Source: Spirosoma aerolatum
GTDB taxonomy: Bacteria; Bacteroidota; Bacteroidia; Cytophagales; Spirosomataceae
NCBI RefSeq assembly: GCF_002056795.1
Contig: NZ_CP020104.1
Span: 755,001 to 819,000, forward strand
DNA: 64,000 nt
Reading direction: 5' to 3'
Below, in pieces: positions 1,901 to 20,994 of this stretch (positions within the stretch are counted from its first letter, which is position 1; every line of letters begins with the position of its first letter). Position numbers and translations under genes: made by a program. The notes below the pieces were generated by a model. The model made no database searches and was not told the DNA's origin. It was given only the letters and a program-made list of their open reading frames with translations.

Positions 1901-3040
1901 TTAGCGAACTAATTCCATAAGGTCTTTATCATTTACTTCTTTGCGAATATCAGCCATATCCAGGAAGCGGGTGTAAATACCATCGAGTGTAGGTTTATCA
2001 TATCGGAAGCCAAGCAATTCAAGCCGATGCTTGAGGGCGTGGCGACCAGAACGAGCGGTCAGTACAATCGATGACTTAGGTACCCCCACATCCTGCGGGT
2101 TCATGATTTCGTAATTCTCAGAATGTTTCAGGAAGCCATCCTGGTGGATGCCTGATGAATGGGCAAACGCATTCCGGCCAACAATGGCTTTATTAGCCTG
2201 AACGGGCATCCGCATCATTTGTGATACAAGGTTACTTACCGGATATAGCCGAGTTGAATCAATATTGGTGTATAAGCCAAGCTCTTTCTTGACCTTTATG
2301 GCCATAACGACTTCTTCGAGCGAGGTATTACCAGCCCGCTCACCAATTCCATTGATGGTGACTTCTACCTGACGAGCACCATTCATAACGCCAGCCAGCG
2401 TATTAGCCGTTGCCAATCCTAAATCGTTATGACAGTGAATGGAAATGGTAGCCTTATGTACGTTAGAAACGTGCTCATAGATATACGCAATCTTCTTTCC
2501 GTACTCGTCAGGCAGGCAATACCCTGTTGTATCGGGTATATTAACGACTGTTGCTCCTGCGCCAATAACAGCCTCGGTCAGTTGGGCAAGGAAAGCTAGG
2601 TCAGCCCGGCCTGCATCTTCGGCGTAAAATTCAACATCTTCCACATAGCTTTTGGCGTGCTTGACAGCGGCTACAGCTTGCTCCAGAATTTTCTCCCGGG
2701 TGCTATTGAATTTATTTCGGATATGAATGTCTGATGAGCCAATACCTGTATGAATTCGGCCTCGTTTCGCCCACTTAAGTGCCTCTCCAGCCGCGTCGAT
2801 ATCACCTTTAACGGCCCGGCTTAATGCACAGATGGTAGGTTCTGTTACGGCTTTTGAAATCTCGACAACTGACCGAAAGTCGCCAGGACTGGAAATCGGG
2901 AAGCCGGCTTCGATAATATCGACACCGAGCCGTTCTAGTTCCTTAGCAACTACGATTTTTTCTTCAGTGGTCAACTGGCAACCTGGCACTTGTTCGCCGT
3001 CGCGCAAGGTGGTGTCGAAAATATAAACTCGTTGGCTCAT
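1901..3040 (-). CDS. leuA: 2-isopropylmalate synthase, short form
   Basis: Condenses 2-oxoisovalerate with acetyl-CoA, the first committed step of leucine synthesis in the cytosol. The 379-residue protein has the DRE-TIM signature DTTLRDGEQ near residue 9, the metal-binding HCHND motif near 200 and [14 protein letters not shown] near 232. It stops after the catalytic barrel and short linker: the roughly 120-residue C-terminal leucine-binding domain of long LeuA proteins is missing, as in many Bacteroidota. Leucine feedback therefore probably does not act on this protein directly. The gene is a transcription unit of its own, with a promoter and attenuator in the 262 bases upstream and a terminator right after the stop. 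A related synthase that keeps the regulatory domain lies at 5309-6829. Confidence 0.95.
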
Positions 3041-3080: not shown

Positions 3081-3117
3081 AAAAAAAGCCCGTTCCTGCG
3101 GAGGAAGGGCTTTTTTT
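3081..3117 (-). terminator. attenuator terminator in the leuA leader
   Basis: On the minus strand an A7-GCCC / GGGC-T7 stem extended by TTCCT/AGGAA with one bulged C, loop CCGC, ending in seven T. It lies between the leuA promoter and the leuA start codon, so it can stop transcription before leuA. Its 5' arm (CCTTCCTCCGC, 3108-3098) can pair instead with GCGGAGAGAAGG at 3140-3129, which would form an antiterminator. Confidence 0.88.
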
Positions 3118-3128
3118 GCAAAATATAT

Positions 3129-3140
3129 CCTTCTCTCCGC
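3129..3140 (-). promoter_or_regulatory. antiterminator arm of the leuA attenuator
   Basis: GCGGAGAGAAGG just after the leader peptide stop codon is complementary to CCTTCCTCCGC of the terminator's 5' arm (11 pairs, one bulged A). Its inner AGAGAA could also pair with TTCTCT in codons 4-5 of the leader peptide. These are the 1:2, 2:3 and 3:4 pairings of a classic amino-acid attenuator. The pairing is read by eye; no folding energies were computed. Confidence 0.75.
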
Positions 3141-3142
3141 TC

Positions 3143-3190
3143 TTAGAAAACGATTAGGTTTTGCAGTCGGTTGGTAGAGAACATAGCCAT
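3143..3190 (-). CDS. leuA leader peptide
   Basis: A 15-codon open frame MAMFSTNRLQNLIVF followed by TAA. It has four branched-chain codons, with Leu-Ile-Val (CTA ATC GTT) in a row at codons 12-14, just before the stop. It lies in the leuA leader, after the promoter and before the antiterminator and terminator. A ribosome held at these codons when charged Leu, Ile or Val tRNA is scarce would free the antiterminator. Placement and content are those of a branched-chain amino acid attenuator peptide; expression has not been shown. Confidence 0.8.
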   Translation of the reverse strand: MAMFSTNRLQNLIVF

Positions 3191-3199
3191 CTGTAGTTT

Positions 3200-3229
3200 G
3201 CGAAATTTCGCTGATTGCGTAAATACGCT
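3200..3229 (-). promoter_or_regulatory. palindromic element shared with the ilvD leader
   Basis: A 30-base element that overlaps the expected leuA transcription start. It begins AGCGT and ends in the perfect palindrome GCGAAATTTCGC. A copy with 25 of 30 bases identical lies at 20965-20994 in front of ilvD, in the same orientation. It may be an operator for a regulator common to both units, or a 5' RNA hairpin. Confidence 0.65.
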
Positions 3230-3230
3230 A

Positions 3231-3260
3231 CAAAAATAGCCCTTTTTAAAATTTTTGCAA
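3231..3260 (-). promoter_or_regulatory. leuA promoter
   Basis: On the minus strand TTG (3260-3258), a 19-base spacer and TATTTTTG (3238-3231). This matches the Bacteroidota promoter pattern of a TTG -33 box and a TAnnTTTG -7 box. Transcription would start near 3224, giving a leader of about 185 bases. The 12-bp inverted repeat 3247-3258/3269-3280 overlaps the -33 region and may form the 3' end of the leuB transcript. Confidence 0.8.
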
Positions 3261-3302: not shown

Positions 3303-4379
3303 TTAGGCCGTTAACTGTTGCAGAATTTGCTCACCCATAGCATCAGTTCCCAGAATTTTATCCGCTGGCGTGTCGCTATTGGCAATATCCCGTGTGCGAT
3401 AACCTGCTTTCAGCACGGCGTCTACGGCATTAATAATGGCCTGGGCTTCATCTTTCAGGCCAAACGATATATCCAATAATAATGCTGCCGAAAGAATCGA
3501 CGCCAGCGGGTTAGCTATACCTTTACCTGTAATATCGTGAGCTGATCCGTGAATAGGCTCATAAACACCCGTCAGATCGCCAACTGAAGCCGAAGCCAGC
3601 ATACCCATCGAACCAGCTATCTGGCTAGCTTCATCGGTCAATATGTCGCCAAATAAATTGCCTGTTACGACCACATCGAACCGCTTGGGATCTTTGATAA
3701 GTAGCATGGCAGCCGCGTCGATAAACTGGTGTTCAACCGTCACGTCTGGGTATTCAGGAGCAAGGGCTTGTACAACTTCTCGCCATAGACGACTGCTTTC
3801 GAGCACATTGGCTTTATCGACTGAGCACAACTTTTTGCTGCGGGTGCGAGCAGCTTCAAAAGCTTTCCGAACAATGCGCTCTACTTCGTACTTACTGTAG
3901 ATCATCGTGTCGTAGGCTGTGTTTCCATCATCAAGTCGTTCGCGCTTTCCGAAATAAACGTCCCCTGTTAATTCCCGAAAGAACAGAATATCGGCCCCCC
4001 GCAGGATTTCGGGCTTAATGCTTGATGCATCCAGCAGTTCATCAAACAGCTTGATAGGGCGCAGATTGGCATAGAGCCCTAACTCTTTACGCATGTTGAG
4101 CAATCCCTGTTCGGGCCGAACTTTGGCGGATGGATCGTTATCGTATTTAGGATGGCCTACGGCACCAAACAGAACGGCATCAGCGGCCTTCATTTTGGTT
4201 AAGGTTTCGTCGGGTAGCGGAGAGCCGGTGGCTTCAATAGCAACGTGGCCGATCAACGCTTCGTCGTAGGTGAATTCATGCCCGAATTTCTGAGCGATTG
4301 TTTCCAGAACCTGCTTACCAACGGTGGTTACTTCGGCCCCAATGCCATCACCGGGGACTACAAGGATGTGTTTTTTCAT
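3303..4379 (-). CDS. leuB: 3-isopropylmalate dehydrogenase
   Basis: Oxidises and decarboxylates 3-isopropylmalate to 2-oxoisocaproate with NAD+. The 358-residue protein is of normal length and has the family landmarks: GDGIGAEV at the N-terminus, GAVGHPKYD near 73, YANLRPIK near 103, the metal-site segment VVTGNLFGDILTDEAS near 235 and the NAD-site motif PIHGSAHDITGKGIANP near 273. It is the last gene of the leuC-leuD-synthase-methyltransferase-leuB run. A 134-base gap with a heptad-repeat hairpin separates it from the methyltransferase, and leuA follows under its own promoter. Confidence 0.96.
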   Translation of the reverse strand: MKKHILVVPGDGIGAEVTTVGKQVLETIAQKFGHEFTYDEALIGHVAIEATGSPLPDETLTKMKAADAVLFGAVGHPKYDNDPSAKVRPEQGLLNMRKELGLYANLRPIKLFDELLDASSIKPEILRGADILFFRELTGDVYFGKRERLDDGNTAYDTMIYSKYEVERIVRKAFEAARTRSKKLCSVDKANVLESSRLWREVVQALAPEYPDVTVEHQFIDAAAMLLIKDPKRFDVVVTGNLFGDILTDEASQIAGSMGMLASASVGDLTGVYEPIHGSAHDITGKGIANPLASILSAALLLDISFGLKDEAQAIINAVDAVLKAGYRTRDIANSDTPADKILGTDAMGEQILQQLTA

Positions 4380-5308: not shown

Positions 5309-6829
5309 TTAGTCCAGCGTATTCAGCATTTTTTGCGTGGCTTTAATGGCCGATACCGTTTGGTCGGAATCGAGGCCACGTGTCTTAAATTCACGGTTTT
5401 TAAATTTCCAGGTTATAATGGTTTCGCAGAGGGCATCAGTACGCCCACCCATTGGAATCCGAACGGCATAGTCGGTAAGGGAAGGGAGCGTTAGCTTCTT
5501 TTTGCTGTAAATCTTCTTCAGGGCGTTCATAAACGCATCGTACTGACCATCGCCCTGGGCGTTTTCCTCGAATTGTTCGTCCTCGATCCGCACGCGCAAC
5601 GTTGCCGATGGCTTGAGGTCTTTTGAGTGCGTCAGTACATAGTTGAGGATTTCGACCCGTGAGGCAATGGCGTTGGTGTTCAGTACGTCAGAAATAACAT
5701 ACGGCAAATCTTCACGTGTAACGACCTCTTTCAAATCGCCCAGTTCGATAACCCGCTGGGTTACTTTCTTCAAATCGCTCTCCGACAATTGGATACCTAA
5801 CTCGCGGAGGTTGTTCTCAATGTTTGCTTTCCCCGATGTTTTACCGAGGGCATAGCTTCGTTTGCGGCCGAAACGTTCGGGGAGTAAGGTGTTGAAATAC
5901 AGGTTGTTTTTCTTGTCGCCGTCGGCATGGATACCGGCGGTCTGGGTAAATACGTTATCGCCAACTACAGGCTTATTGTCGGGAATTCGAAGCCCCGAAA
6001 AGGTTTCAACGATCTTGCTAACCTGATACAGCGATTTTTCGACCACACCCGTTCGAACATCGGGCATGAAATCGCGCAGAACGGCAATGGCGCTTGCCAT
6101 GGGAGCGTTTCCGGCTCGTTCACCCAGGCCATTTACGGTCAGGTGCAAGCCATGCGCTCCCGCCCGAATCGCTTCCATCACATTGGCAATGCTAAGGTCG
6201 TAGTCGTTATGGGCGTGAAAATCGAAATGAAGTGCTGGATACCGATTGACGAGTTGGCTGACAAAAGCAAATGTCTCGCCGGGTGTCAACACGCCTAAGG
6301 TGTCGGGAAGCAAAATACGCCGAATGGGCTGTGTTTGCAGGAAATCCAGGTACTGAAGTACATAGTCGGGCGAGTTTCGCATACCATTACTCCAGTCTTC
6401 CAGGTACACATTGACTTCCAGACCCGACTGCCGAGCCTGCTCGATAACTTGCTGAATATCGTTGAAGTGTTCAATAGGCGTTTTCTTAAGCTGGTGGGTA
6501 AGGTGATTCATCGACCCTTTAGTCAGCAGGTTCATCACCCTGGCGCCCGAAGCGCGCATCCAGTCGAGCGAGGCTAGCCCATCAACAAACGTTAGCACTT
6601 CAATCTTATCAAGCAAGCCAGCTCCAGCCGCCCATCGGGTAATCTGCTGAACGGCTTCCAGTTCTCCGGCTGATACCCGTGCTGAGGCTACTTCAACGCG
6701 GTCAACTTTAACCTCTGTCAACAGCGACTGAGCTAAAGCTAATTTTTCGGACGCAGAAAACGACACCCCGCTGGTTTGTTCACCATCGCGCAGTGTCGTG
6801 TCCATGATTTCAATATAACGACGTTTCAT
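5309..6829 (-). CDS. alpha-isopropylmalate/citramalate synthase family protein with regulatory domain
   Basis: A 506-residue member of the LeuA/CimA family. It has the catalytic TIM barrel ([16 protein letters not shown] near residue 9, metal motif HAHND near 205, NGLGERAGNAP near 232) and a C-terminal regulatory domain (about 375-506) that leuA at 1901-3040 lacks. It may be the leucine- or isoleucine-sensitive isopropylmalate synthase, or a citramalate synthase that makes 2-oxobutyrate from pyruvate; sequence alone does not settle this. The ATG at 6829 was chosen because the in-frame extension to 6880 runs into a heptad-repeat hairpin. It lies between leuD and the methyltransferase gene. Confidence 0.88.
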   Translation of the reverse strand: MKRRYIEIMDTTLRDGEQTSGVSFSASEKLALAQSLLTEVKVDRVEVASARVSAGELEAVQQITRWAAGAGLLDKIEVLTFVDGLASLDWMRASGARVMNLLTKGSMNHLTHQLKKTPIEHFNDIQQVIEQARQSGLEVNVYLEDWSNGMRNSPDYVLQYLDFLQTQPIRRILLPDTLGVLTPGETFAFVSQLVNRYPALHFDFHAHNDYDLSIANVMEAIRAGAHGLHLTVNGLGERAGNAPMASAIAVLRDFMPDVRTGVVEKSLYQVSKIVETFSGLRIPDNKPVVGDNVFTQTAGIHADGDKKNNLYFNTLLPERFGRKRSYALGKTSGKANIENNLRELGIQLSESDLKKVTQRVIELGDLKEVVTREDLPYVISDVLNTNAIASRVEILNYVLTHSKDLKPSATLRVRIEDEQFEENAQGDGQYDAFMNALKKIYSKKKLTLPSLTDYAVRIPMGGRTDALCETIITWKFKNREFKTRGLDSDQTVSAIKATQKMLNTLD

Positions 6830-6838
6830 AGTTAATGA

Positions 6839-6918
6839 TTGAATGACTGAATGACTGAATGATTGAATAGGCTGGCGCAAGCTTTTCTAGTCAATCATTC
6901 AATCATTCAGTCATTCAA
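6839..6918. repeat. heptad-repeat hairpin between leuD and the LeuA-like gene
   Basis: Two arms of 31 bases (6839-6869 and 6888-6918) pair with two mismatches. Each arm is about four copies of the heptamer TGAATGA or a close variant. It fills the gap between leuD and the next gene and could shape mRNA ends or stability. The same style of heptad repeat appears at 4381 and 62921. Confidence 0.85.
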
Positions 6919-19251: not shown

Positions 19252-20952
19252 CTACGCTTCATCGGTTACGCAACCCTCACTGGCTGATTTTACGTTTCGA
19301 ATGTATTTGCCCAGGACGCCTTTGGTGAATCGTGGAGCGGGTTGTTGCCATTCACTCTTCCGATACGCCATTTCTTCATCCGAGATCTGCAGAATGATTT
19401 CGCGTGTGGTAGCATCGATGGTAATACGATCACCATCTTTAACAAGGGCAATCGGGCCACCTTCGTAGGCTTCGGGCGTTACGTGACCGACAACGAACCC
19501 GTGTGTGCCACCTGAGAAGCGCCCATCAGTAATCAGGGCTACTTTATCGCCAAGACCAGCTCCCATAATGGCCGAGGTAGGTTTCAGCATTTCGCTCATG
19601 CCAGGGCCACCTTTAGGGCCTGCATTCCGAATCACCAGCACTTGTCCGGGTAGAATTTCGCCTTTCGACAGCGCTTCAATGACTTCGCCCTCGTGTTCGC
19701 AAACTTTCGCTATTCCGTCAAATTTCAGCCCTTCCTTACCCGTGATCTTCGCGACTGCGCCCGTTGGCGAGAGGTTGCCGCGTAAAATCTGAATATGTCC
19801 GGTTGGCTTAATGGGCTGACTTAGCGGGAATACAATCTTTTGCGTTTCGAAATTCAGATCAGCGGCTTCTTCCAGGTTTTCTGCTACCGTTTTTCCGGTT
19901 ACAGTCAGGCAATCGCCGTGGATATAGCCGTTCTGATATAAGTATTTCATGACGGCTGGAACACCCCCAATAGCGAGCATGTCTTCCATATAATACTTGC
20001 CACTTGGCTTCAGATCGGCAATTAAAGGGGTCCGGTCGCTAATCGCCTGAATTTCGTCGAGGGTAAGTTCAATATCGGCTGCCCGCGCAATAGCCAGGTA
20101 ATGCAGAACGGCATTGGTAGAACCGCCCAGGGCCATTACAATCGTTAGAGCGTTTTCGAGCGATTTGCGGGTAATGATCTCTTTCGGTGTGATGTTCCGT
20201 TCGAGTAACAGCCGCATAGCAGCACCGATTTTCTTACACTCTTCCTGTTTGCCTTCGTGAGTAGCTGGATAGGTGCTACTAAATGGCAGACTTAGGCCCA
20301 TCGCTTCGATGCTGCTTGCCATGGTATTGGCGGTGTACATACCGCCACAGGCACCGGCACCCGGAATCGAGTTTTTGATAACGCCTTCGTAATCTTCGTC
20401 GGAAATGTTGCCTGCGTATTTTTTACCTAGTGCTTCGAAGGCCGACACAATATCCAGTTTCTGACCTTTATAATGGCCCGAGCGAATGGTACCACCGTAA
20501 ACCATAATACCAGGCCGATCAAGTCGGGCCATGGCCATGACGGCACCCGGCATATTTTTGTCGCAACCTACTACCGTTACCACACCGTCGTACCACTGAG
20601 CCGCTACTACCGATTCAATGGAATCGGCAATGAGGTCGCGGCTGGGTAGCGAGTACCGCATACCGTCGTTGCCGTTGGTCATTCCATCCGATACACCGAT
20701 TGTATTGAAAATAAGTCCAACGAGTCCATTCGCCTGGATTCCCTGCTTAACATATACCGAGAGTCCGTTTAGGTGCATATTGCAGGTGTTGCCTTCGTAG
20801 CCCGTGCTGGCAATGCCAATCTGAGGCTTCTGCATGTCGTCTTCCGTAAGGCCTACACCATAGAGCATGGCTTTGGCGGCTGGGTTACTAATTTCCTGTG
20901 TAAGGGTACGACTAAAGCGATTCAGTTCAGTAGGAGTTGATTCGGTAAGCAT
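19252..20952 (-). CDS. ilvD: dihydroxy-acid dehydratase
   Basis: Fe-S enzyme that dehydrates the dihydroxy acids of valine and isoleucine synthesis. The 566-residue protein has the three cluster cysteines in TCNMH near 57, GCDKNMPG near 124 and [12 protein letters not shown] near 196, and the C-terminal [15 protein letters not shown] motif near 475. It is the first gene of the ilvDBNC-A run. Its short leader holds the 30-base element shared with leuA. Confidence 0.96.
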
Positions 20953-20964
20953 ATTTTACAATTA

Positions 20965-20994
20965 GCGAAATTTCGCTGCTGGTGTAATAACGCT
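20965..20994 (-). promoter_or_regulatory. palindromic element in the ilvD leader
   Basis: Second copy of the 30-base element in front of leuA (25 of 30 identical), with the same perfect 12-base palindrome GCGAAATTTCGC. It ends 12 bases before the ilvD start codon. The promoter itself is less clear here: a TTG near 21028 and a T-rich -7 region match only loosely. Confidence 0.65.

Follow-up and report, generated by a model that had tools for sequence, protein, structure and literature searches.

A predicted leucine-responsive transcription attenuator and a conserved double palindrome upstream of leuA in Spirosoma and related Bacteroidota

The window analysed here, a stretch of 64,000 nucleotides of the Spirosoma aerolatum genome, carries leuA on the minus strand with leuB as its upstream neighbour (Table 1). 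In agreement with a sequence-only reading of this DNA, the leuA product of 379 aa does not have the leucine-sensing LeuA_dimer domain (PF08502). A citramalate-synthase-like HMGL-type paralog encoded in the same cluster (5309-6880) keeps this domain. Inspection of the sequence upstream of leuA found the promoter, a 15-codon leader, an arm behind its stop codon and a T7 terminator at the positions given in that reading. The region contains one more conserved feature, absent from the sequence-only reading, namely the double palindrome GCGTATTTACGC-AATCA-GCGAAATTTCGC (N5 spacer), located directly 3′ of the -7 box (3228-3200, minus strand). The -7 consensus of Bacteroidota-type promoters is TAnnTTTG, and the consensus of 56 distinct leuA upstream regions has TAtTTTTG at a constant distance 5′ of the palindromes. 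A scan for sigma-70 promoters and terminators listed neither the leuA promoter nor the leuA terminator. The leader RNA is predicted to fold at -41.5 kcal/mol with the terminator formed, and it is more stable than dinucleotide shuffles (z -2.37).

Table 1. Features of the leuA upstream region and related elements in the window
Feature	Position	Strand	Basis
Bacteroidota-type promoter: TTG (3260-3258), 19 nt, TATTTTTG (3238-3231)	3231..3260	-	sequence and leuA-upstream consensus
Palindrome 1, GCGTATTTACGC, around the expected transcription start	3217..3228	-	sequence; fixed register at leuA and ilvD
Palindrome 2, GCGAAATTTCGC; with palindrome 1 a candidate operator, centres 17 bp apart	3200..3211	-	sequence, conservation
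Leader ORF, MAMFSTNRLQNLIVF plus stop, 15 codons; ATG at 3190, stop 3145-3143	3143..3190	-	sequence, conservation
Arm 2 (antiterminator strand), GCGGAGAGAAGG, purine-rich, starts 2 nt past the stop codon	3129..3140	-	pairing with terminator
Intrinsic terminator: hairpin 3116-3082, T7 tract 3087-3081; -17.6 kcal/mol	3081..3116	-	folding; stem covaries in genus
leuA, 2-isopropylmalate synthase, 379 aa, without LeuA_dimer (PF08502); start 3040	1901..3040	-	
leuB, upstream neighbour of leuA; ends about 190 nt before the hairpin	3303-4379	-	
Second double-palindrome copy, directly before ilvD (19252-20952), without attenuator	20964..20993	-	pattern search

We compared the leuA upstream regions of 33 Spirosoma and 37 other family members, the latter hand-picked out of 180 matches (at least 76% identity), each read to about 320-330 nt. 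A residue-blind rule (an ATG ORF located 3′ of the conserved element, with its stop 15-45 nt before a terminator) retrieved a leader and a terminator in 30 of the 33 Spirosoma sequences and in 21 of the 37 from the wider family, the latter count being lowered from 22 by removal of a false match (L053). The stops lie 21-34 nt before the terminator. Shuffling the sequence before the same terminators gave an ORF in 191 of the 1020 trials, and these ORFs contained 11% leucine. Among 28 distinct Spirosoma peptides leucine makes up 101 of 401 codons (25%; 9.1 and 8.4% in the other two frames), and among 22 family peptides (L053 included) 93 of 346 (27%; other frames 10.1 and 3.5%). The last leucine codon is located 1-7 codons 5′ of the stop, exactly four in 26 of 52 leaders. 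Spirosoma leaders share an RLQKLNVF-like core, and other family members have runs such as LILLLL or LLLL; MKPIAQNLILLLLTTS and MANYLINRQNLLLLFTYS are examples of leucine-rich leaders among relatives. Two points stand against this picture. The leader of the window itself has just two leucines, at codons 9 (CTG) and 12 (CTA), among the 14 codons following Met, and one Spirosoma upstream region (L024) has no ATG. The other two Spirosoma sequences missed by the rule, L016 and L020, show a leader and a hairpin by eye. As for the family misses, likewise judged by eye, L053-L057 and L060 have the palindromes and no leader, L077 has neither, and L059 and L075 fail the rule, yet leader-like sequence is visible.

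The most natural signal for such leaders, judging from their composition, is leucine: isoleucine and valine account for about 5% each in Spirosoma and, among the other family members, for 8% and 2%. An alternative is that the leader responds to translation in general or to isoleucine and valine as well, as a general or multivalent attenuator. The peptide in the window indeed ends with LIVF, and Ile/Val/Leu-rich sequences are found both in the ilvD leaders of relatives and in the leader candidates of genera with long LeuA. However, the Leu-Ile-Val run, which the sequence-only reading had pointed out, is present in only 5 of 28 aligned Spirosoma sequences (alignment A1), and asparagine is commoner where isoleucine stands. 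We therefore discarded the run as a conserved sensor, and with isoleucine and valine so rare in Spirosoma leaders we regard the broader specificity as quite unlikely. As a separate observation, CGACTGCA (Arg-Leu-Gln; 3162-3169 in the window) is found in 21 of the 28 Spirosoma sequences aligned in A1; CGACT occurs shortly 5′ of GGAAGTG in 17 of 70 other leuA upstream regions, all from Prevotella or Prevotellaceae (e.g. L181, L198, L179). No pairing accounts for the likeness between CGACTGCA and the Prevotella-type CGACT, which may be a coincidence.

The arm and the 5′ half of the terminator in the window can form a duplex of 11 bp at -19.4 kcal/mol, so the proposed pairing is real; when the arm region was shuffled by mononucleotides, 1 of 200 versions did equally well (0.005). 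The window is one of 42 cases, among 48 distinct ones, in which the pairing is better than 95% of shuffles. Out of 2256 comparisons, 1631 favoured the own partner over a swapped one (Wilcoxon p 5e-6; neither this swapped-partner test nor the binomial test takes relatedness into account), the mean energies being -15.3 for own, -12.8 for swapped and -7.8 kcal/mol for shuffled partners. Co-variation of the Leu-Ile-Val codons, antiterminator and terminator had also been suggested as a check, and within Spirosoma it was borne out for the terminator stem (paired cells 90.6% vs 86.7%, reached by 0 of 500 shuffles; covariation score reached by 1 of 500) but not for the arm. The arm/terminator pairing is conserved in the genus without covariation, with a score of 0.155 vs 0.154 (228 of 500 shuffles as high) and 81.7% of cells paired vs 81.6% in shuffles (261 of 500). 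Relative to the end of the stop codon, the start of the arm ranges from 6 nt upstream to 4 nt downstream (51 leaders; an earlier start lay outside the search). Because of this position, a ribosome resting at the stop codon should cover at least the first part of the arm.

Peptide-coded attenuators usually, though not universally, have in addition a protector (1:2) pairing between leader and arm. The sequence-only reading had proposed one between AGAGAA of the arm and leader codons 4-5 (TTCTCT), completing a full set of alternative pairings. The terminator and the antiterminator of that set are supported, but the third pairing is not. The TTCTCT/AGAGAA duplex does exist, yet 44.5% of shuffled leaders match it, so that we do not consider it a selected feature. 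A protector pairing passes 0.05 in no more than 4 of the 48 distinct cases, and the window is not one of them; its leader plus arm folds like dinucleotide shuffles (z -0.04). On average, leader plus arm folds slightly better than shuffles (mean z -0.89, n=50), with L046 reaching -2.66; hence, some relatives may have a protector.

Taken together, the leuA 5′ region has its own promoter and a short leader ORF, leucine enrichment, an intrinsic terminator and an antiterminator exclusive with it, and no supported protector pairing. The comparison among relatives supports well the original proposal of a peptide-coded attenuator, and the region very probably represents a ribosome-mediated attenuator of transcription that responds to leucine. 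With an ample supply of charged leucine tRNA, the ribosome would reach the leader stop and cover the adjoining arm, the terminator would form and transcription would end near 3081. Under leucine shortage, a ribosome stalled at leucine codon 9 or 12 would have its front edge, given the ribosome footprint, near the stop codon; the arm would then be free to pair with the terminator 5′ half, and leuA would be transcribed. The stalling, the response to leucine, the transcript ends and the ribosome geometry are all inferred. The hairpin might instead be merely the terminator of leuB, accompanied by a small ORF arisen by chance. leuB lies on the same strand and ends at 3303, about 190 nt 5′ of the hairpin, as would befit such a role. 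However, the stretch separating leuB from the hairpin holds a conserved promoter and 5′ element, the ORF is conserved at 25% leucine, and the terminator has a complementary arm. Moreover, in the seven relatives with no more than about 100 nt between the end of leuB and leuA (L041-L045, L047, L050), element, ORF and hairpin are jointly missing, as judged by eye. We thus consider a leuB terminator extremely improbable.

An Rfam search up to E 5 produced eight matches, all below threshold, with no Leu_leader, T-box or riboswitch among them; the best two were Thr_leader, one on each strand, at 27.3 and 25.8 bits vs a threshold of 55. The enterobacterial leu attenuator (leuL; Rfam Leu_leader) comprises a leader peptide, a terminator and an alternative antiterminator under the control of leucine, and the Spirosoma region resembles it in all three elements. 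Unlike in leuL, there is no match to Leu_leader up to E 5, no supported protector and an arm placed directly at the stop, and the leucine codons are scattered in Spirosoma, whereas those of leuL are in tandem. The Spirosoma region is most likely a known type of leucine attenuator, found in a phylum that is poorly charted. Across a Bacteroidota family such a layout is described here at leuA and, for some relatives, also at ilvD, with further candidates in genera encoding long LeuA. Leader-peptide attenuation has been suspected in the same phylum, according to passages reporting 'strong clues' that leader peptides precede amino-acid operons in Flavobacterium psychrophilum (PMC9723704) and, for Bacteroides thetaiotaomicron (PMC7366714), long 5′ UTRs with small ORFs 'reminiscent of leader peptides'. 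The main texts of both papers mention neither leuA nor ilv, and the relevant passages name no amino acid. In the parts of PMC2965389, PMC9723704, PMC7366714, PMC4833913 and PMC5794164 drawn on here, neither a leuA or ilv attenuator nor the double palindrome is described for Bacteroidota.

The sequence-only reading further proposed that control by leucine had moved from the enzyme to the RNA. We surveyed 79 usable leuA loci, 54 encoding long (at least 480 aa) and 25 short LeuA, with one truncated case (L218) excluded; upstream regions were read to 320 nt with a loose rule that takes the ILV-richest ORF. PF08502, missing from LeuA of the window, is present in the three long LeuAs tested (L171, L198, L209). 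An Ile/Leu/Val-rich leader candidate with a terminator was found in 29 of the 54 long-LeuA loci, about 16 being expected by chance according to shuffles of the sequence upstream of the real terminators, and on the opposite strand the rule was matched twice. An arm better than 95% of shuffles accompanies 19 of these 29 candidates. Given the chance level of about 16 in 54, single leader calls in long-LeuA genera are not secure. The shuffles strengthen the calls in the window's family. Leader candidates precede 6 of the 25 short LeuAs (5 of the 9 from the window's family). In Pedobacter, Parapedobacter and Sphingobacterium, 15 of 16 short-LeuA loci have no leader within 320 nt and one is a weak case; for these 16 loci, 0.55 chance matches were expected, one was seen, and none on the opposite strand. 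Leaders are thus not tied to domain loss, loss of LeuA_dimer was dropped as the rule behind the attenuator, and a shift of control from LeuA to its RNA has no support as a rule.

The double palindrome is not restricted to leuA. With up to 3 mismatches it occurs at two places in the 8-Mb genome, one preceding leuA and the other preceding ilvD, which belongs to an ilvD-ilvB-ilvN-ilvC group; its reversed control yields no places in the same genome at up to 3 mismatches. The 13-mer AGCGAAATTTCGC is present in 36 of 36 Spirosoma genomes and also in the 18 Spirosoma ilvD upstream regions examined, and two more of its places (G026:C649 and G028:C149) resemble the ilvD copy. Eight further exact 13-mer places in Spirosoma were rejected as targets, since all are within reading frames and probably due to chance (L264 and L265 were judged by eye via a serB-like frame seen also in L253). 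Allowing up to 2 mismatches, the palindrome core is found in 60 of 70 leuA and 33 of 40 ilvD upstream regions, a somewhat different way of counting giving 34 for ilvD. In Spirosoma the ilvD copy comes without an attenuator. Among wider relatives, 7 of 40 ilvD upstream regions have by rule an Ile/Val/Leu-rich leader in the same layout (e.g. MFANIIVVVVVILCTQTV and MQLAVLIVVLLVSTC); one rule match (L146) was dropped because it looks like chance, and an additional leader, in L256, reads MKISGFVNIILVLVILCCEV.

Outside these two genes, the palindromic 12-mer was found in 26 of 37 family genomes searched. The first 26 places examined comprise 7 at leuA, 8 at ilvD and 11 elsewhere; four of the 11 precede nameable genes, and seven, plus L257, are in coding frames or without assignment. 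In other genera, exact copies precede XRE/IrrE-like regulator, TonB-receptor-like, GAPDH-like and pckA-like genes, and in two genomes a copy is located upstream of a POT-like peptide transporter gene. These names are a reading of the sequences, except that the regulator was assigned by its Pfam domains (HTH_3 and Peptidase_M78). Among 30 regulator homologs examined (of 43 matches), AGCGAAnnTTCGCT lies within 300 bp upstream in seven, from six genera (L239/L267, L268-L270, L272, L276, L293), and none of 300 shuffles does as well. At six of these seven loci TAnnTTTG follows 36-40 nt downstream of AGCGAAnnTTCGCT, and at the GAPDH-like and pckA-like genes it follows 23 nt downstream of the 12-mer; the chance of finding it in the next 60 nt is 2-13% (eight loci computed). 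No TAnnTTTG was detected behind the box at the TonB-like gene, at either of the two transporter genes or at L276, L245 and L251.

The palindrome thus recurs before functionally linked genes, leuA and ilvD, at promoter positions. An RNA element at the 5′ end of the transcript (a stabiliser or a ligand-binding RNA) could account for the location of the double palindrome directly after the -7 box at both genes, and a 4-bp hairpin of palindrome 2 is possible in 56 of 56 distinct leuA and 24 of 28 distinct ilvD instances. Palindrome 1, however, can form its 4-bp hairpin in only 33 of 56 and 6 of 28, leaving 23 and 22 in which it is impossible (in a fixed register, so that shifted copies count as broken). 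Furthermore, at six regulator loci and at the pckA-like and GAPDH-like genes AGCGAAnnTTCGCT or the 12-mer lies upstream of TAnnTTTG and would, if these are promoters, be outside the transcript. We consider an RNA element unlikely. Half-sites that are kept around a varying centre, together with a box outside the RNA where TAnnTTTG is present, fit a dimeric DNA-binding protein. The double palindrome is probably a DNA operator shared by leuA and ilvD and overlapping the transcription start. A protein would then bind to the palindromes, and a box over the expected start site of both genes would be the place of a repressor. The shared palindrome offers a concrete handle on branched-chain amino acid control in these bacteria.

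A literature search of mostly open-access scope found no described regulator for the shared palindrome. Long XRE/IrrE-like regulators (HTH_3 plus Peptidase_M78) carry a like palindrome before their own genes in six genera of the family, and the HTH motif SYLNEIEKGKKYPK is present in all seven regulators with the site but, among 23 without it, only in L282. In contrast to the site-bearing regulators, the single homolog in the window genome (L294, about 50% identical) has neither the site nor SYLNEIEKGKKYPK, so the box-binding protein could not be named through it. It is tempting, if rather speculative, to view the double palindrome as the operator of a yet undescribed global amino-acid regulator of this family, plausibly XRE/IrrE-like and autoregulated, which would repress leuA and ilvD at the start site, with the leaders adding leucine- or ILV-specific control. 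If so, the system would be a Bacteroidota counterpart of CodY plus attenuator, and in relatives the regulator's targets may extend to the pckA-like, GAPDH-like and peptide-transporter genes. The ilv-leu operon of Staphylococcus aureus, as portrayed in the pertinent passages of PMC5794164, combines CodY with a leucine-rich attenuator peptide. From what those passages convey, both systems place a leucine-responsive attenuator before branched-chain synthesis genes together with a DNA-binding regulator, which is putative here. They differ in phylum, in the GCG-N6-CGC double palindrome with its putative protein and in the separation of leuA and ilvD into distinct units, each of which has its own leader in some relatives. 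At two loci of the family without a leader (L054 and L056), a diverged double palindrome, GTGAAATTTCGC-N5-GCGGTATTTCAC, lies with equal spacing just 5′ of leuA. Leader and palindromes are both missing at L041-L045, L047 and L050, where leuB is close to leuA.
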